Source: a virus
Length of the DNA stretch: 26,216 bases
Direction: 5' to 3' (one strand)
IMG/VR virus record: IMGVR_UViG_3300006305_000016
Location: 1 to 26,216 of that record
The translations under genes and the position numbers were made by a program. The notes below the pieces were generated by a model that worked only from the letters and a program-made list of their open reading frames with translations, made no database searches and was not told the DNA's origin. Below are positions 1,565 to 25,685 of the stretch, piece after piece (the first letter of the stretch is position 1; the number at the start of each line of letters is the position of its first letter).

Positions 1565-2058
1565 TCCTCATCTTTACAAATACCCATAATCAACCCTAAA
1601 AACATTTTACCTGGCGGTGCAATGATTCTAATACCAGAGTTAGGAGGCATCACTATGAAACTACCTTCTTTAAGTGGTAATTTAAATATACCTTTCTCAC
1701 CAGTTTGTATATCTAAGTCAATACAGTCTGGTGTGCAACAAGGTACATATAACATTCTATGATGTGATGGAACATCTGTTGCTTTATTAAAATCTGCCTG
1801 AACTACATAATATTTACCCAATCCAACATCTTCTAATAATTTCATTAGTTTATCAAATAGTGGTTGCATCCAATCGTGTTCAGTTACATCTGCAAACCTT
1901 TTATCTTCTGTAAAAACATCTTTTGCAACATCAAGGAAATTCTCGTGAAAGGATAACGCTTGACTATGCAAAAGAGTTTTATCATTCTTATTACGATTTT
2001 CACCTATCCAAATAGAACCTTTTGGATGAACATCTTTTATTTCACTAAATTTAATCAT
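1561..2058 (-). CDS. Unknown 165-residue protein downstream of pstS
   Basis: I do not recognise this protein. It is soluble, with no signal peptide or membrane helix. The C-terminal third (KLPLKEGSFIVMPPNSGIR and following) has the alternating hydrophobic pattern of a beta barrel such as a cupin or 2OG-oxygenase fold. However, no HxD motif with a distal His is evident, so no enzyme call is made. Visible residues include HSQALSFHENFLD near 31-43 and a cysteine pair CCTPDC around 107-112. The ATG lies inside the end of pstS (overlap 2051-2058), with the stop codon of pstS just after it, so translation is probably coupled. It may act in the same host-support role as pstS, but that is only positional. 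Confidence 0.7.
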   Translation of the reverse strand: MIKFSEIKDVHPKGSIWIGENRNKNDKTLLHSQALSFHENFLDVAKDVFTEDKRFADVTEHDWMQPLFDKLMKLLEDVGLGKYYVVQADFNKATDVPSHHRMLYVPCCTPDCIDLDIQTGEKGIFKLPLKEGSFIVMPPNSGIRIIAPPGKMFLGLIMGICKDED

Positions 2059-3022
2059 TAAGTGGTATGAGTCCTTTATCTATTAAATATCCGTCTTCAC
2101 CTATTGCTCTATCAGATGTAAATTCTTTTGTATATTCTCTAATGCCTGGAATTACAGCTGCGTGTGCATCTTTTACATAAAACCATAATGACCTAGAAAT
2201 AGGATATGTACCATTACTAATTAATTCAAATTCTGGACTAACACCATTAATTGTTGCAGGCTTTACTTTATCTCTATTTTCATCTAAAAAAGAATAACCA
2301 AATATACCTAATGAATCTGGGTTTGTTATCAATTTTTCAATTATTAGATTGTCGTTCTCACCAGCTTCTATATATACACCATCTGTTCTTATTGCACGAC
2401 ATTCGGATTTATATAATTTTTTATTACTTTCTTTAAGTTTTTTTCTCTCTGGATAAGTTTTACAACCTCTTTCAATACCAAGTTCGTTTAATGCATCTCT
2501 AGTACCAGATGTTGGTGGTGGGCCGTAAACAACAATAGGTAAGTCTGGATATGTTGGATTTATTTCTATCCATTTTTTATATGGATTAGGTTTGACAGTT
2601 TTACCATCAATGTCTGCTGGTACATCTTTTGCAAGTGCAAGATATAAATCTCTTAAAGATAAATGAAAGTTTACACCTTTTTTTGAGTTTGCAATCGCAA
2701 TACCATCATATCCTATTTTAACTTCTGTAATATCTTTGATACCGTTCTTTTTACAATTATCTATTTCTGTTTGTTTTATTCTTCTTGATGCATTTGTTAT
2801 ATCTGGGTGTTGTGTGCCTAGTCCAGCACAAAATAATTTTAATCCACCACCAGAACCAGTTGACTCAACTACTGGTGTTTTAAATCCACTAGTCTTACCG
2901 AATCGTTCTGCAACAGTTGTTGCGAATGGATATACAGTAGAACTACCTACTATTTTAATTTGGTCTCTTGCAAATAAGTTTGTTGCAAATAATAATGTAA
3001 ATATAAATAAAAAGTTTCTCAT
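2051..3022 (-). CDS. pstS: Periplasmic phosphate-binding protein PstS (auxiliary metabolic gene)
   Basis: Substrate-binding protein of the high-affinity phosphate ABC transporter, expected to be exported and to supply the host PstCAB transporter during infection. The N-terminus is a clear Sec signal peptide: MRN, a hydrophobic run FLFIFTLLFATNLF, and cleavage after Ala18. The mature protein has the phosphate-binding hallmarks: GSSTVYPF at 26-33, the ESTGSGGG loop at 53-60, an aspartate in DITNASRR (74-81), and the SGTRD helix cap at 172-176. At 323 residues it is of normal length and intact. It resembles proteobacterial PstS more than cyanobacterial types, which hints at the host. It follows gp47 by nine bases with a strong GGAGAAGG ribosome site. 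I see no separate promoter or Pho box, so it should be transcribed with the recombination genes rather than by host phosphate control. Confidence 0.92.
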   Translation of the reverse strand: MRNFLFIFTLLFATNLFARDQIKIVGSSTVYPFATTVAERFGKTSGFKTPVVESTGSGGGLKLFCAGLGTQHPDITNASRRIKQTEIDNCKKNGIKDITEVKIGYDGIAIANSKKGVNFHLSLRDLYLALAKDVPADIDGKTVKPNPYKKWIEINPTYPDLPIVVYGPPPTSGTRDALNELGIERGCKTYPERKKLKESNKKLYKSECRAIRTDGVYIEAGENDNLIIEKLITNPDSLGIFGYSFLDENRDKVKPATINGVSPEFELISNGTYPISRSLWFYVKDAHAAVIPGIREYTKEFTSDRAIGEDGYLIDKGLIPLND

Positions 3023-4720: not shown

Positions 4721-5008
4721 CTATTCTCCTTTGTATCCGTCAATGTGTTTCCATTGACTATCATATATGTAAGATTTTAAATCATCATATCCACCGATGT
4801 GTTTGTTCTTTTCATTCCATATTTGTGGAACAGTTTTGAACCCTTGTTTTTTAAAATCTTCTCTTATATCATCATTTGATACATTGTGTTCTTCATAATC
4901 TATGTTAAAGTTTTCCATAAGTTTTTTAGCTTTATCACAATAAACACAAGTATCTGCTGTAATGATTCTGTATTTAACTCTTTTTTTTATGTAATTATCT
5001 AAGTTCAT
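4721..5008 (-). CDS. grx: Glutaredoxin
   Basis: A 95-residue thioredoxin-fold redox protein. It has the dithiol active site CVYC at 21-24, the cis-proline loop TVPQIW (59-64) and the glutathione-binding GGYDDL (72-77). It is likely to reduce ribonucleotide reductase or other disulfides in the cytoplasm during phage nucleotide synthesis. The ATG overlaps the gp55 stop codon (ATGA), so expression is coupled to the late sigma factor. Glutaredoxins near gp55 and gp47 are usual in marine T4-like phages. The tail after residue 80 is a short extension. Confidence 0.93.
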   Translation of the reverse strand: MNLDNYIKKRVKYRIITADTCVYCDKAKKLMENFNIDYEEHNVSNDDIREDFKKQGFKTVPQIWNEKNKHIGGYDDLKSYIYDSQWKHIDGYKGE

Positions 5009-5550
5009 TTTTCCTCATAAAAATTTTCTAAACTCTTTTTAGTTTCTTTTTTCTTAGAACTATTTGCTTTGTAAACTTCTTGGCCATCTTGTGGTAACAT
5101 ATTCTTTTGTAAATAATCCATATATTGATTACCATAGTTTGTATCATCTAAGGGATTCTGGTCAAAGGTAGGCATCATATTCTTTTCTATTATTTTATGT
5201 TTAGTGTGTGTTTGTTTTTTTTCTTTTTGTATTCTACGAATAAATGCATAGTATATTATTTGTGTAAAATATGAAAAGGGGTTCTTTGATTTTTCTGGGT
5301 CAAAATTTTTTACATATTGTAGACAGTTTTCTATACCATCACCTATCATCTCTTCTTTAAATGTATAGTTTATAAAGTTAGGTCTAAATGATAAGTGTTG
5401 TGCAATCTTTAAAAAACACTCACCAATATAATCTGTTACTGGTGGAGCTTCTTCTCCTAAAGATTCTGCATCTTTTACTTTTTCTTTCCACTCTGTGATT
5501 GCCTCTAAGAATTGTTTATTGTTAACATAATGTTTTGCATTTGCAGCCAA
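5005..5550 (-). CDS. 55: Late-transcription sigma factor gp55
   Basis: Phage sigma factor that directs host RNA polymerase to TATAAATA late promoters, helped by the sliding clamp and gp33 (not in this window). The 181-residue protein aligns by eye with T4 gp55 (185 residues). Shared stretches include YVNNKQFLEAITEWK at the N-terminus, then FRPNFINYTFKEEMIGDGIENCLQYVKNFD and the NPFSYFTQIIYYAFIRRIQKEKK segment, the sigma region 2 core. The start is TTG at 5550, seven bases after an AAGGA site; no ATG upstream keeps the frame. It is the first gene after a 121-base gap with a sigma70-type promoter, as expected for a gene needed before late expression. The late boxes elsewhere in this window are its likely targets. 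Confidence 0.94.
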   Translation of the reverse strand: MAANAKHYVNNKQFLEAITEWKEKVKDAESLGEEAPPVTDYIGECFLKIAQHLSFRPNFINYTFKEEMIGDGIENCLQYVKNFDPEKSKNPFSYFTQIIYYAFIRRIQKEKKQTHTKHKIIEKNMMPTFDQNPLDDTNYGNQYMDYLQKNMLPQDGQEVYKANSSKKKETKKSLENFYEEK

Positions 5551-6115: not shown

Positions 6116-6359
6116 TCCACAACCTTAACTTTTTATCCATTGGTTTCCATTCAACTGGGGGTTCATCTAACTTAGCTCTATTTAAATTTACATTTTCCCA
6201 GAAGTGTTCAAAAACCTCTTCTTTTGTTTCCATTATATTAAATTCAAATTCTTCATACATCTTATCAATTCTTTTTTTTATCTTTTCTTTATTATACTCA
6301 ATCTTTCTTTTATAGTCATACATTTCTTTAAATTTTTCATAATCCTTTTCATTTATCAT
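6108..6359 (-). CDS. Small unknown protein downstream of uvsW
   Basis: An 83-residue, highly charged protein. The first 45 residues are almost entirely helical in composition (KDYEKFKEMYDYKRKIEYNK region), a likely coiled coil. The C-terminus contains EPPVEWKPMDKKLRLW. It has no signal peptide or membrane segment. The ATG overlaps the uvsW stop codon (ATGA), and its own end overlaps the next gene by eight bases, so it is translated in a coupled chain. I do not recognise the family. Confidence 0.65.
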   Translation of the reverse strand: MINEKDYEKFKEMYDYKRKIEYNKEKIKKRIDKMYEEFEFNIMETKEEVFEHFWENVNLNRAKLDEPPVEWKPMDKKLRLWNE

Positions 6360-9373: not shown

Positions 9374-9780
9374 AATGCACCCTCCGTATATTTAATCCAA
9401 GTTGTTATGTTTCTTAGTTGGAATCCTCTATTGTGTAGATTTTTCACTATGTGTTCCAAATAACTAGAAACAACTTTAAGATAATCTAATTTAGATTGTA
9501 ATCTAACCATATCTTCATCTGATTCTAAGTATGTTGGAATATCTTGTCTAAGAATTTTCAACTCAAATGGTTTCTCTGATTTACCAGAATAGTATTCCCA
9601 TTTTTGTTTTTTTAATATTTTCATATCAGTTTCAGCTTTACTTAACATAAGTCTAAAATTAGTATAAAGTTTTAAATATTTATTAAGTAATGCTGGACTT
9701 CTAGTCTCCTCTAGATTGATGTTAGTTTCATCAATCTTGGAATCTTTATCAAACATTTCTTGTATTTTTTGTAAGTCCAT
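9370..9780 (-). CDS. uvsY: UvsY recombination mediator
   Basis: Loads the UvsX recombinase onto single-stranded DNA coated with gp32. The 136-residue length nearly equals T4 UvsY (137). Recognisable features are the N-terminal LQKIQEMFDKDSKID, KILKKQKWEYYSGKSEKPFE in the middle (T4 has a similar ...RLDYYSGRG...), and a C-terminal region SRYLEHIVKNLHNRGFQLRNIT-like that corresponds to the hexamerisation helix. The ATG at 9780 has no Shine-Dalgarno sequence. Instead a perfect sigma70 promoter ends five bases upstream, which implies a leaderless message. It heads a chain of overlapping genes down to 5672. Confidence 0.93.
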   Translation of the reverse strand: MDLQKIQEMFDKDSKIDETNINLEETRSPALLNKYLKLYTNFRLMLSKAETDMKILKKQKWEYYSGKSEKPFELKILRQDIPTYLESDEDMVRLQSKLDYLKVVSSYLEHIVKNLHNRGFQLRNITTWIKYTEGAL

Positions 9781-9785
9781 ACGGT

Positions 9786-9814
9786 ATTATATACTATAAT
9801 TAAAAAGTTGTCAA
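9786..9814 (-). promoter_or_regulatory. Perfect-consensus sigma70 promoter abutting uvsY
   Basis: Minus-strand TTGACA (9814-9809), a 17-base spacer and TATAAT (9791-9786). This is a full consensus match in both boxes with optimal spacing. Only five bases (ACCGT) separate the -10 box from the uvsY ATG, so the normal start site falls on the ATG itself. The promoter is located just past the gp3 stop codon at 9818. Confidence 0.85.
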
Positions 9815-9817
9815 GTC

Positions 9818-10408
9818 TTATAACGATTCAAATTTAAATAATTGATATTGAAAAGTTGCAGTTGCACTCATATATTGAGTGTCTGATTGGTCATTTGTAT
9901 ATTGTAACGCAGAAAGTGATACTGGATATACATTTGAAAAGTTTACATTTAATACTGGATTATTCTTATTAGATAGTATTGTTAATGTTGCATCTGAATA
10001 CATTGCACCGTCTGGTGTTCTAGGTTTAGGTGTATCTGATGGTGCATTTATCTTTGATTGAGATGTAGGAAACTGACCTACATTTTCTTGTCTAAAACTT
10101 TTGAACTGTGCTCTATCTTCTGGAAATCCAATCGCCATAATCCACCTAAAGAGTTCTTGATAGTTTTGTAACTTTTCATCTACTAAAAATGTTATCTCAA
10201 GATTTTCAAATGTTACTTTATCTGGTAATATTGGAATATCTTTAAATGGTGTGGGAAATATTGCATCACCCATATTTACGCCAGGTATATTACACGCAGT
10301 AGTGAAGAATTGTACTTTGGGTAATTGTATAATAGAGAACCTATACTGACTCGGTGCAGAATAGTCTATTTCCTCTGGTTGTCGTGTGAGTGCGTTTATA
10401 TCTGTCAT
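9818..10408 (-). CDS. 3: Tail completion / tail-tube terminator protein gp3
   Basis: Caps the head-proximal end of the tail tube and sheath. The 196-residue protein has the tube-protein fold signature: FSIIQLPKVQFFTTACNIPG, then a beta strand plus FLVDEKLQNYQELFRWIMAIG, which matches the VDENL...W motif of T4 gp3 and tube proteins. Its C-terminal strands (VYPVSLSALQYTND, ATATFQYQLFKFE) fit the same fold. The gene lies between gp23 and uvsY, exactly where marine T4-like phages carry gp3. I use ATG 10408 (MTDINALTRQPEE), not the upstream TTG at 10426, because that TTG lies beside the T-run of a terminator. No ribosome site is seen; the late promoter directly abuts the ATG. It could alternatively be another tube-fold protein such as gp54. 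Confidence 0.82.
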   Translation of the reverse strand: MTDINALTRQPEEIDYSAPSQYRFSIIQLPKVQFFTTACNIPGVNMGDAIFPTPFKDIPILPDKVTFENLEITFLVDEKLQNYQELFRWIMAIGFPEDRAQFKSFRQENVGQFPTSQSKINAPSDTPKPRTPDGAMYSDATLTILSNKNNPVLNVNFSNVYPVSLSALQYTNDQSDTQYMSATATFQYQLFKFESL

Positions 10409-10413
10409 ACTAT

Positions 10414-10421
10414 TATTTATA
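10414..10421 (-). promoter_or_regulatory. T4-type late promoter for gp3, predicted leaderless
   Basis: Exact TATAAATA. With the T4 rule that this box spans -13 to -6, the +1 base is the A of the gp3 ATG at 10408. It sits immediately after the terminator that ends gp23 transcription, so gp3 appears to have its own start. Confidence 0.72.
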
Positions 10422-10424
10422 ATC

Positions 10425-10454
10425 AAAAAAAAAGGGGAGCGAACTCCCCTTTTT
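10425..10454 (-). terminator. Intrinsic terminator after gp23, UUCG loop
   Basis: Minus-strand RNA reads AAAAAGGGGAG, loop UUCG, CUCCCC, then nine U. The GC-rich six-base-pair stem can be extended by pairing the A-run with the U-run. It lies 24 bases after the gp23 stop. On the plus strand the same hairpin ends in five T, so it may act in both directions. Confidence 0.93.
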
Positions 10455-10477: not shown

Positions 10478-11818
10478 TTACATTAAGTTAGCGACTTTAA
10501 CTCTTCTGTAATATTGGTTAGTTTCTTTAGTAAATGCAGTATTTGAAGAACCAGCATCATTACCGTCAGCTAACGCACCAGCGTCAACAGCGAATGGGTT
10601 ATCAATCATACCGTATCTAGTTTTGAAACCGATTTTTGGTTGGAAAGTTTGCTCACCAACTGCTCTCACCATTTGTAGTGGAACATATGGACAATAGAAA
10701 GTACCAGCATCGTAAGGTGAAGTACCTTTATATCCACAGACATAGTATTGACTTGCAGCTACATTTGCAGCGTATGGGTCAACATATACTCTGTAACGAC
10801 CATTCAATACACCAGCAAAAGTGTTTTGAGTGTCATCCACTTGTAGGTTGTTGTTTAATGCAGATTGGTAATCTAGGATACCAGCCATTTGTAAAGCAGA
10901 GGCAACATCAGCACTTACTAGTAAAAGGTTACCTTTCCCTCTACGAGTTTTTTGACCGATTGCATTTGCATCTCTTTCAATCTGGAACATTAGTCCTTTG
11001 AATTTTTCAACAGACCATCTACCGTTAGAATCTGTATCTAAGTCAAAAGTACCAGCAGTAGTTGTATTTACTTGAGCACCTTCTACGGCAGTTCTGTAAA
11101 TTCTTCTTACTACTTCCCTATTGATTTCTGCAAGAATTTCAGCAGAAAGGATATTTGCAAGTTCTGTTTCTGCATCAAGACCGTGAATTGCTTTTAAGTC
11201 TTGTGCAAGTTCCATTGTGTATTCGGCTTTAAGTGCTCTAGACTTTGCAGTAACAGTTGATTTCTCAATAGAGAAAGCCATTTGTGCAAAGTGGTTTTGA
11301 GAACTATCACCTAATGCTTCAGCCTGTGCAGTAGTCATACCTTGTGAAAAAGTATAAGTACCTTCTGGTGAATCATTAAGAATACTAGGGTTAGTGCCTT
11401 GCTGTGCAGTTGTTAATGAAGATGATGCGTTATCAGCAGAATGTTCTGCATCTGCTTCATCTACTAATGCTTCTGCACCAGACTGGTCATCAAATCTTGA
11501 ACGCATTGCCAAGATTAAACCAGTTGGGCCAGTCATTGGTTGCACACCACAAATGTCATATGCAATCAAGTTTGGCATAGCTCTTCTGACAAGTGAAATC
11601 AAAATTGGATCCCAATTTGCCATTGGATTGGCACCAGCCGCAGTTGCGTTAACTGGAGTTCCTTCTGCCAAGAAAGAAGCATCTTCTCTGAGTGCCTTCT
11701 CTTGGTTTTCTAAAATAACAGTAGTGACGGCTCTTCTGTAAGCATCATTGATTTTTGGTAAATCTGGATGGTCTAGAACGGGCTGCCACTTCTCTTGTAA
11801 ATGTGTTGTTTGAAACAT
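10478..11818 (-). CDS. 23: Major capsid protein gp23 precursor
   Basis: Forms the hexamers of the prolate head. The 446-residue protein carries gp23 hallmarks in order: QEKWQPVLDHPDLP (T4 LLNKWKPLLEGEGLP), SLVRRAMPNLIAYDICGVQPMTGPTG (68-100 region), SRALKAEYTMELAQDLKAIHGLDAETEL, EINREVVRRI, FAGVLNGRYRVYVDPYA, GFKTRYGMIDNPFA and a C-terminal YYRRVKV. It is shorter than T4 gp23 (521), as usual for marine relatives that lack the insertion domain. A likely gp21 cleavage site is FLAE after Glu52, matching the L-x-E rule. It ends in tandem stops and a strong terminator, and has its own ribosome site AAGGAG and late-type promoter. Confidence 0.98.
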   Translation of the reverse strand: MFQTTHLQEKWQPVLDHPDLPKINDAYRRAVTTVILENQEKALREDASFLAEGTPVNATAAGANPMANWDPILISLVRRAMPNLIAYDICGVQPMTGPTGLILAMRSRFDDQSGAEALVDEADAEHSADNASSSLTTAQQGTNPSILNDSPEGTYTFSQGMTTAQAEALGDSSQNHFAQMAFSIEKSTVTAKSRALKAEYTMELAQDLKAIHGLDAETELANILSAEILAEINREVVRRIYRTAVEGAQVNTTTAGTFDLDTDSNGRWSVEKFKGLMFQIERDANAIGQKTRRGKGNLLLVSADVASALQMAGILDYQSALNNNLQVDDTQNTFAGVLNGRYRVYVDPYAANVAASQYYVCGYKGTSPYDAGTFYCPYVPLQMVRAVGEQTFQPKIGFKTRYGMIDNPFAVDAGALADGNDAGSSNTAFTKETNQYYRRVKVANLM

Positions 11819-18798: not shown

Positions 18799-19124
18799 TG
18801 AGTGAACATTATCAAAAATATCGCAATACAATACGAAAAGTTGCACGAAGACATCGTAGACTAAAAGATAAATGGATTAACGAACAGTTAAGAGATAAAT
18901 CTTGTAAATACTGTGGCGAGTCTGAGATAATCGTATTAAAATTTTATCCAGATGATAGAAAAATTCGTGCAGATTCTAAAAAGAAAAGTTTAAAAAAAGA
19001 TACTAGGAAATTGTTATTAGAACAAATAGATAACAATGTTATAGTCTGTCATAATTGTTTTTTAAAAAAAGATAATGATTTAATTGACGAAGATGCATTT
19101 ACCAATTTGTATCATACTTCCTAA
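18798..19124 (+). CDS. Small four-cysteine (degenerate HNH/zinc-ribbon-like) protein, only plus-strand gene
   Basis: A 108-residue very basic protein. CKYC at 36-39 and CHNC at 84-87 would bind one zinc, and their spacing with VIVCHNC resembles HNH endonucleases. The usual catalytic histidines after the first pair are replaced by VLKFYPDD, so nuclease activity is doubtful. The N-terminal 30 residues (TIRKVARRHRRLKDKWINEQ) are strongly positive and suit DNA or RNA binding. Two starts are possible: ATG 18798 (MSEHYQ, used here) or ATG 18765 with 11 more residues; neither has a ribosome site. The gene is convergent with gp17 and its end overlaps the gp17 3' end by 26 bases. It could be a decayed homing endonuclease. 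Confidence 0.72.
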   Translation: MSEHYQKYRNTIRKVARRHRRLKDKWINEQLRDKSCKYCGESEIIVLKFYPDDRKIRADSKKKSLKKDTRKLLLEQIDNNVIVCHNCFLKKDNDLIDEDAFTNLYHTS

Positions 19125-24870: not shown

Positions 24871-25685
24871 TATGCTACCTTCCAAAATAATGCTGTTCTA
24901 TTCATCCAAATAGTAGTACCACCAGATGATGAGAATGATTGTGAATATCCTTGACCATAAGTGCTTGTAGAAGTTTGAGCAGACGCTTGTATTTTAAAAG
25001 TTTTTTGTGCTGCGATTGTAAATCTTCCTTTTATAAAAGAGATTAAATTGTTTGTATGACTTGAATCATTATACATCAAAGCACCCTCAAGCACTAATGA
25101 ACTATCTGCTGTGTTATAAAGTCTAGATACAAAGGAATTACATCTTGCAGTACATATCATTATATCAGCAAAATATGTACCTGATGGTAAAGTAACTTCA
25201 TTACTTGATAATGATGCTCCCGATATTTCATTCGTTTTTACTGTATTAAAAATAAAATCAGTATAACTTGTTCCTATGGATGTGCTTTGGTGTGTAGCGT
25301 GTTCATTTTGTATGTGAAATAAAGCTGATTCATAAACACCAGCACTTCCAAATTCAAGTCCAGTTCCACCAGTATTTACTTTGACTGCTTGACCGCCAGA
25401 ACCTAAAGTATTAATGTTAAACAATCCGATTTTATCTAGAAAAGTTTCGTTAAATAATATTCTATCATCTGCATTTGTACTAGAATTATCTGTTCCATCT
25501 AATACTAAAAAATCACCTTTGTTTGCACCAGCACCATCTGTTCCATCTAATATAATTGAATCGTTCTGTAAACCTAGTCGTGTGTCTGCATCTATTTTTG
25601 CTTTTGATATACTATTACTTGCAATATCAACGGCTTGTATTGATGCATCTGCAATAGCTCTACTTGGTAATGTTCTTATCGGCAC
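24870..25685 (-). CDS. Tail-fibre-like protein with jelly-roll-type C-terminus
   Basis: A 271-residue protein. The start is GTG at 25685 (MPIRTLPSRAIAD), preceded by AGGAGAG. The N-terminal 60 residues (RAIADASIQAVDIASNSISKAK) are the S/A/D-rich attachment type also seen in the two glycine-rich fibres. The middle has DGTDGAGANKGDFLVLDGTD repeats. The C-terminal 130 residues (GTYFADIMICTARCN through WMNRTALFWKV) resemble a C1q/TNF-like jelly roll found at fibre tips. It is probably a short receptor-binding or neck fibre. Domain naming is by eye. Confidence 0.75.
   Translation of the reverse strand: MPIRTLPSRAIADASIQAVDIASNSISKAKIDADTRLGLQNDSIILDGTDGAGANKGDFLVLDGTDNSSTNADDRILFNETFLDKIGLFNINTLGSGGQAVKVNTGGTGLEFGSAGVYESALFHIQNEHATHQSTSIGTSYTDFIFNTVKTNEISGASLSSNEVTLPSGTYFADIMICTARCNSFVSRLYNTADSSLVLEGALMYNDSSHTNNLISFIKGRFTIAAQKTFKIQASAQTSTSTYGQGYSQSFSSSGGTTIWMNRTALFWKVA

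Follow-up and report, generated by a model that had tools for sequence, protein, structure and literature searches.

The window, meaning the whole stretch of 26,216 nucleotides that was analysed, comes from a T4-like marine myovirus. Its minus strand carries head and tail genes and includes gp17-gp23, gp3, UvsY, UvsW and gp55. The gene for the major head protein gp23 (10478..11818, minus strand; PHROG 138, E 2e-162) ends with a stop codon at 10480-10478 and is followed after 24 nt by an intrinsic terminator (10429..10454, minus strand) with an 11-pair stem, a UUCG loop and a U tract that extends to 10425. The arms of the terminator read AAAAAGGGGAG-UUCG-CUCCCCUUUUU, then UUUU; its folding energy is -15.3 kcal/mol (z -4.2), and it is the sole terminator-like site within 8-14 kb of the window. 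The original prediction described a UUCG-loop terminator with nine U; the hairpin and the nine U were right, but five of the U residues pair with A residues of the stem.

The next gene (9818..10408, minus strand) encodes a gp3-like protein of 196 aa from the tail completion/tail-tube family (PHROG 45 tail tube, E 9e-35). Judged by gp3, the nearest isolates are Pelagibacter phage Mosig (44% identity) and Methylophilales phage Melnitz together with Pelagibacter phage HTVC008M, whose tail completion protein is 36% identical; all three are Kyanoviridae. The window also includes the gene for the late sigma factor gp55 (5005..5550, minus strand; PHROG 234, E 2e-61), which is the presumed reader of the promoter box described below. 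A phage-borne gene for a PstS-like phosphate-binding protein lies at 2051-3022 on the minus strand; its best bacterial matches (58-67%) come from Proteobacteria as well as from other groups, and hence name no host.

An exact T4-type late promoter box, TATAAATA, which is conserved among relatives, occupies 10414..10421 (minus strand) and is separated from the gp3 start codon (10408-10406) by the five-base spacer ATAGT (10409..10413, minus strand) with T at -1. On the minus strand the gp23-gp3 junction thus reads ...AAAAAGGGGAGTTCGCTCCCCTTTTTTTTTGATTATAAATAATAGT immediately followed by ATGACAGATATA... The T4 late box is numbered from -13 and covers -13 to -6 (T4 late transcription review, PMC2988020). 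As the box ends at -6, the predicted transcription start is the sixth base past it, namely the A of the gp3 AUG at 10408 (minus strand), and only with +1 at 10408 does the box fall at -13 to -6. No Shine-Dalgarno sequence was found in the DNA directly before the ATG. The exact box five bases from the ATG and the lack of a ribosome site were therefore as originally predicted. No further in-frame ATG occurs in gp3 of the window before residue 46. An in-frame TTG at 10426 was considered as a start and rejected; it is absent from relatives such as L020 and, being upstream of the predicted start site, could not be on the late transcript. Accordingly, gp3 combines the features of a leaderless gene (predicted start at the codon, AUG start, no Shine-Dalgarno sequence on the predicted message) with those of T4 late promoters (exact box, gp55-family sigma gene, virion gene, here for a tail protein, directly downstream).

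The other gene-facing boxes of the window lie ~25-45 nt from the ATG of gp18, gp20 and gp22 (exact) and gp23 (one mismatch), and the leader of each of these genes includes AGGAG (AAGGAG-type in gp23). Within the window, gp3 is the exception. TATAAATA is common in A+T-rich DNA, and it could lie near the gp3 ATG by accident or through minimal intergenic space and be functionless. Indeed, the window shows no enrichment of the box: seven exact copies were observed as compared with a Markov expectation of 4.4 +/- 2.1, and the count of boxes with at most one mismatch equals chance. For a box placed exactly 5 nt ahead of an ATG that opens an ORF of at least 60 aa, the window has one case against ~0.1 expected, which is only suggestive for the window alone; the case against chance is made instead by the comparison with relatives.

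In close relatives (96-100%), TATAAATA-ATAGT-ATG is unchanged. A wider comparison, in which only ATG starts were considered, covered 111 gp3 representatives <90% alike, many of which share descent and do not amount to 111 independent events. ATAAATA lies exactly 5 nt from the gp3 ATG in 52 of the 111, and CTAAATA does so in 6 more (58). The spacing is 6 nt in two and 7 nt in three representatives (L174, L425, L431, L433 and L446), 8-12 nt in none of the 111, and 13 nt in one, cyanophage P-TIM68. In another 37 of the 111 the box is 18-25 nt away, giving a predicted leader of ~13-20 nt that nearly always contains AAGGA or a close variant. A few gp3 genes (L100, L195 and L490) have no box. In the small clade of L431, L433 and L446, TATAAATACTATTATATG or a close variant precedes gp3, which corresponds to the spacing of 7 and would give a leader of 1-2 nt. 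Comparison of the junction in related phages, which had been proposed as a check, thus showed the 5-nt design to be conserved across diverse gp3 genes.

The base before the ATG is T in 50 and C in 3 of the 53 predicted leaderless (class A) gp3 genes, i.e. a pyrimidine in all 53. Genome-wide, a pyrimidine at -1 was found in 28/30 genes with the 5-nt spacing versus 38/63 leadered genes (Fisher p 0.001). A purine stands at the sixth base past the box in every class A gp3 gene and in 38/38 leadered (class B) gp3 genes, with A in 34 and G in 4 of the latter. Bacterial start sites prefer a pyrimidine-purine step, and the pattern at the gp3 AUG fits this preference. A start on the A of the ATG, as deduced originally from T4 spacing, would therefore agree with both the box numbering and the -1 pyrimidine/+1 purine signature. 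Separately, the first two bases past ATAAATA are GT in 18/30 genes with the 5-nt spacing, counted in HTVC008M, G002, Mosig, Melnitz, G001 and G003; this bias suggests an extended box ATAAATAGT in the pelagimyophage-type lineage.

The same signature bears on the possibility that transcription starts 1-3 nt upstream or downstream of the A, yielding a tiny leader or a partial AUG, with translation from another start or from a minor start site. The five gp3 genes with spacings of 6 or 7 and the range of 5 to 9 in the UvsY promoters (see below) would be in keeping with such a shift. However, the signature is located exactly at the A, the constancy of the 5-nt spacing points to a fixed register, and the next in-frame ATG of gp3 is not before residue 46. 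A displaced start is thus considered most unlikely.

The DNA upstream of the box is far more variable than the box and spacer. In L020, a gene for 370 aa (1025-2137) with no Pfam match is inserted between gp23 and gp3 and ends 25 nt before gp3, with the box and spacer intact. L033 has no terminator and unrelated DNA upstream, and its box, spacer and gp3 start are identical to those of the window. Altogether, ~23 unrelated upstream types, which are either the end of some other gene or terminators with differing sequences, precede the predicted leaderless gp3 genes; many relatives have a different hairpin of the same kind before the box, and others have none. In a maximum-likelihood tree of gp3, the leaderless state occurs throughout most of the diversity of pelagimyophages, and almost every leadered gene, the Melnitz-like sequences included, falls in one well supported clade.

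These data can be set against translation of gp3 mainly from read-through gp23 mRNA, in which initiation would be independent of a Shine-Dalgarno sequence on an A/U-rich stretch and TATAAATA would be incidental or minor. T4-like structural genes are often co-transcribed, terminators leak, and the A/U-rich stretch UUUUUUUUUGAUUAUAAAUAAUAGU does precede the gp3 AUG. Yet read-through leaves unexplained the exact 5-nt spacing, the pyrimidine at -1 and the switch to a Shine-Dalgarno sequence only where the box is 18-25 nt away; furthermore, a strong terminator lies in between, and the same spacing is found before many other genes. Reliance on read-through is, hence, very unlikely, and a leaderless late message accounts for the pattern better.

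The other genes were surveyed by measuring the distance from ATAAATA to the ATG of ORFs of at least 60 aa, with boxes of permuted letters as a control. In HTVC008M, the box stands at exactly 5 nt in nine genes, and no gene has it at 0-4 or 6 nt (Poisson P ~2e-9 versus permuted boxes). These nine genes start at 6280, 7562, 19456, 31132, 49760, 75559 and 142360 on the plus strand and at 18916 and 16007 on the minus strand, and Mosig gp3 starts at 24964 (minus strand). The 5-nt spacing was also found for eight genes in G002 (P 3e-8), six in Mosig (2e-5) and three in Melnitz (3e-3). Permuted boxes averaged ~0.3-0.55 per position, and the real 5-nt spike exceeded the permuted level 10-20 times in several genomes. 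Together with conservation of the arrangement among gp3 genes that differ widely and are preceded by unrelated DNA, this makes an accidental, functionless box scarcely credible. The excess is absent in T4 (0), Syn9 (0), S-PM2 (1) and P-TIM68 (1). Therefore, the view that the design is unusual for T4-like phages stands with respect to these four but not for pelagimyophages, which use it widely. In the close relatives G150 and G151, a second 5-nt match opens only 12-19 codons and was rejected as a gene. A pattern scan of IMG/VR with NATAAATANTAGTATG gave, among the matches listed, mostly unrelated contigs and was kept out of the evidence.

Many of the predicted leaderless genes are late virion genes. 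The genes with the 5-nt spacing include those for the baseplate tube cap, baseplate wedge proteins, tape measure, head-tail adaptor, a 2OG-Fe(II) oxygenase and proteins of unknown function, and the DNA end protector gene has this spacing in HTVC008M, G002, Mosig and Melnitz. For almost all of these genes, no in-frame start earlier than the ATG at 5 nt is possible. A Shine-Dalgarno-like sequence is present in Mosig in 20/21 leadered late genes versus 0/6 predicted leaderless ones, and in HTVC008M in 6/6 versus 2/9, the two exceptions being upstream of the predicted start.

In Melnitz, the gp3 start is displaced 17 nt further downstream, behind AAAAGGG, and an out-of-frame ATG is left at the predicted 5' end of the RNA. 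The same order of elements, i.e. the box, an ATG 5 nt on, AAAAGG and the annotated gp3 ATG at 22-25 nt, was observed in Melnitz (L035, 3971-4003), L502, L510, L511 and L516-L518. As judged by sequence, Melnitz-like gp3 looks like an intermediate between the leaderless and leadered designs, whose message would start with a decoy AUG.

UvsY, which adjoins gp3, is preceded by a consensus sigma-70 promoter TTGACA-17-TATAAT (9786..9814, minus strand) that matches 12/12 consensus bases and was not part of the original prediction. The -10 box ends 5 nt before the UvsY ATG at 9780, and the UvsY message is thus probably leaderless or nearly so, and non-late. In relatives, such a promoter is kept at 5-9 nt from the ATG, and gp55-like genes in some relatives (named by resemblance only) have the same short design. 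In Mosig and G003, sigma-70-like promoters peak at 6 nt from the ATG, which again would place +1 on the A. An excess of leaderless sigma-70 promoters was not seen in two SAR11-like host genomes chosen by a SAM-V riboswitch and 29% GC (G057, with 36% GC, was dropped), where too few promoters were available to give more than little power.

Taken together, it is highly probable that the mRNA for gp3 is leaderless and depends on gp55, and that gp3 belongs to a class of such genes in marine pelagimyophage-type T4-like phages. The late-sigma-driven leaderless gp3 of the original prediction was thus upheld by the invariant spacing, the initiator signature and the occurrence of Shine-Dalgarno sequences only in leadered relatives. 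From these observed features, together with the anatomy of the junction and the recurrence of the arrangement across genes and genomes, we infer the gp3 start site, the activity of the promoter and the mode of ribosome binding. The junction would then be a compact transcription boundary. The terminator would stop most gp23 transcripts and limit read-through, and we propose that gp3 can in this way be regulated separately from the capsid gene, which is expressed at a very high level. The late sigma factor gp55, presumably acting as in T4 together with gp33 and the sliding clamp, would recruit RNA polymerase to TATAAATA; transcription that starts on the A of the AUG would give a leaderless mRNA beginning 5'-AUGACAGAU. 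As start sites of the T4 type can vary in position by 1-2 nt, a gp3 leader of this length is possible. The ribosome would bind the 5'-terminal AUG directly, as for other leaderless mRNAs, assuming that the host is able to translate leaderless messages.

A more tentative proposal, which we regard as possible but somewhat doubtful, is that the late regulon of pelagimyophage-type phages operates in two modes. A Shine-Dalgarno-leadered set that includes the head genes would be distinct from the systematically leaderless genes for the baseplate, tail completion, tape measure and DNA end protector, with separate initiation routes that could be tuned separately late in infection. If so, the scheme would reach back to earlier genes through the sigma-70 promoters of UvsY and gp55, which leave a near-zero leader. 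The findings further provide exact start-site predictions for ~25 genes of phages that are cultured or near-complete, and they sharpen the rule by which start codons are annotated; Melnitz gp3 illustrates how one mode may be exchanged for the other.

In textbook accounts of T4 late transcription, late genes carry leaders with ribosome-binding sites. The gp3 promoter is like the gp55/gp33/gp45-dependent late promoters of T4 in its box, the A/T-rich downstream DNA and the gp55-like sigma gene in the window. It differs in that T4 boxes lie 12-35 nt from the ATG and none at 5 nt, and most such T4 genes have a Shine-Dalgarno sequence. The late promoters of cyanophages Syn9, S-PM2 and P-TIM68, which belong to the same family Kyanoviridae, have the same box, [N]ATAAATA (PMC2984593); unlike gp3 here, their leaders are mostly longer, with the box 18-40 nt from the ATG. 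In a survey of pelagimyophages, late promoter prediction by the methods used for cyanophages failed (PMC7029224), and the leaderless class may help to explain this failure.

The gp3 message resembles leaderless mRNAs in its predicted 5'-terminal AUG and the lack of a Shine-Dalgarno sequence. The lambda cI mRNA is an example of this type. Leaderless mRNAs are known from bacteria and phages (Brock 2008 as cited in PMC5312081). However, known leaderless messages arise from host-type or other promoters, as opposed to the T4-type late-sigma promoter predicted here. No report of a leaderless T4-type late gene class was found among the open-licence PMC papers searched; T4 late promoters and leaderless mRNAs are each known, and it is their regular pairing in one phage lineage that was not found there. 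If the pairing is true, one and the same promoter machinery can be coupled to another way of starting translation, and this in an abundant group of ocean phages. HTVC008M, Mosig and Melnitz share with the window the gp23-gp3-UvsY-UvsW-gp55 neighbourhood and the class of genes with the box 5 nt from the ATG, the difference being that in Melnitz gp3 itself starts downstream of the 5-nt ATG, behind AAAAGGG.
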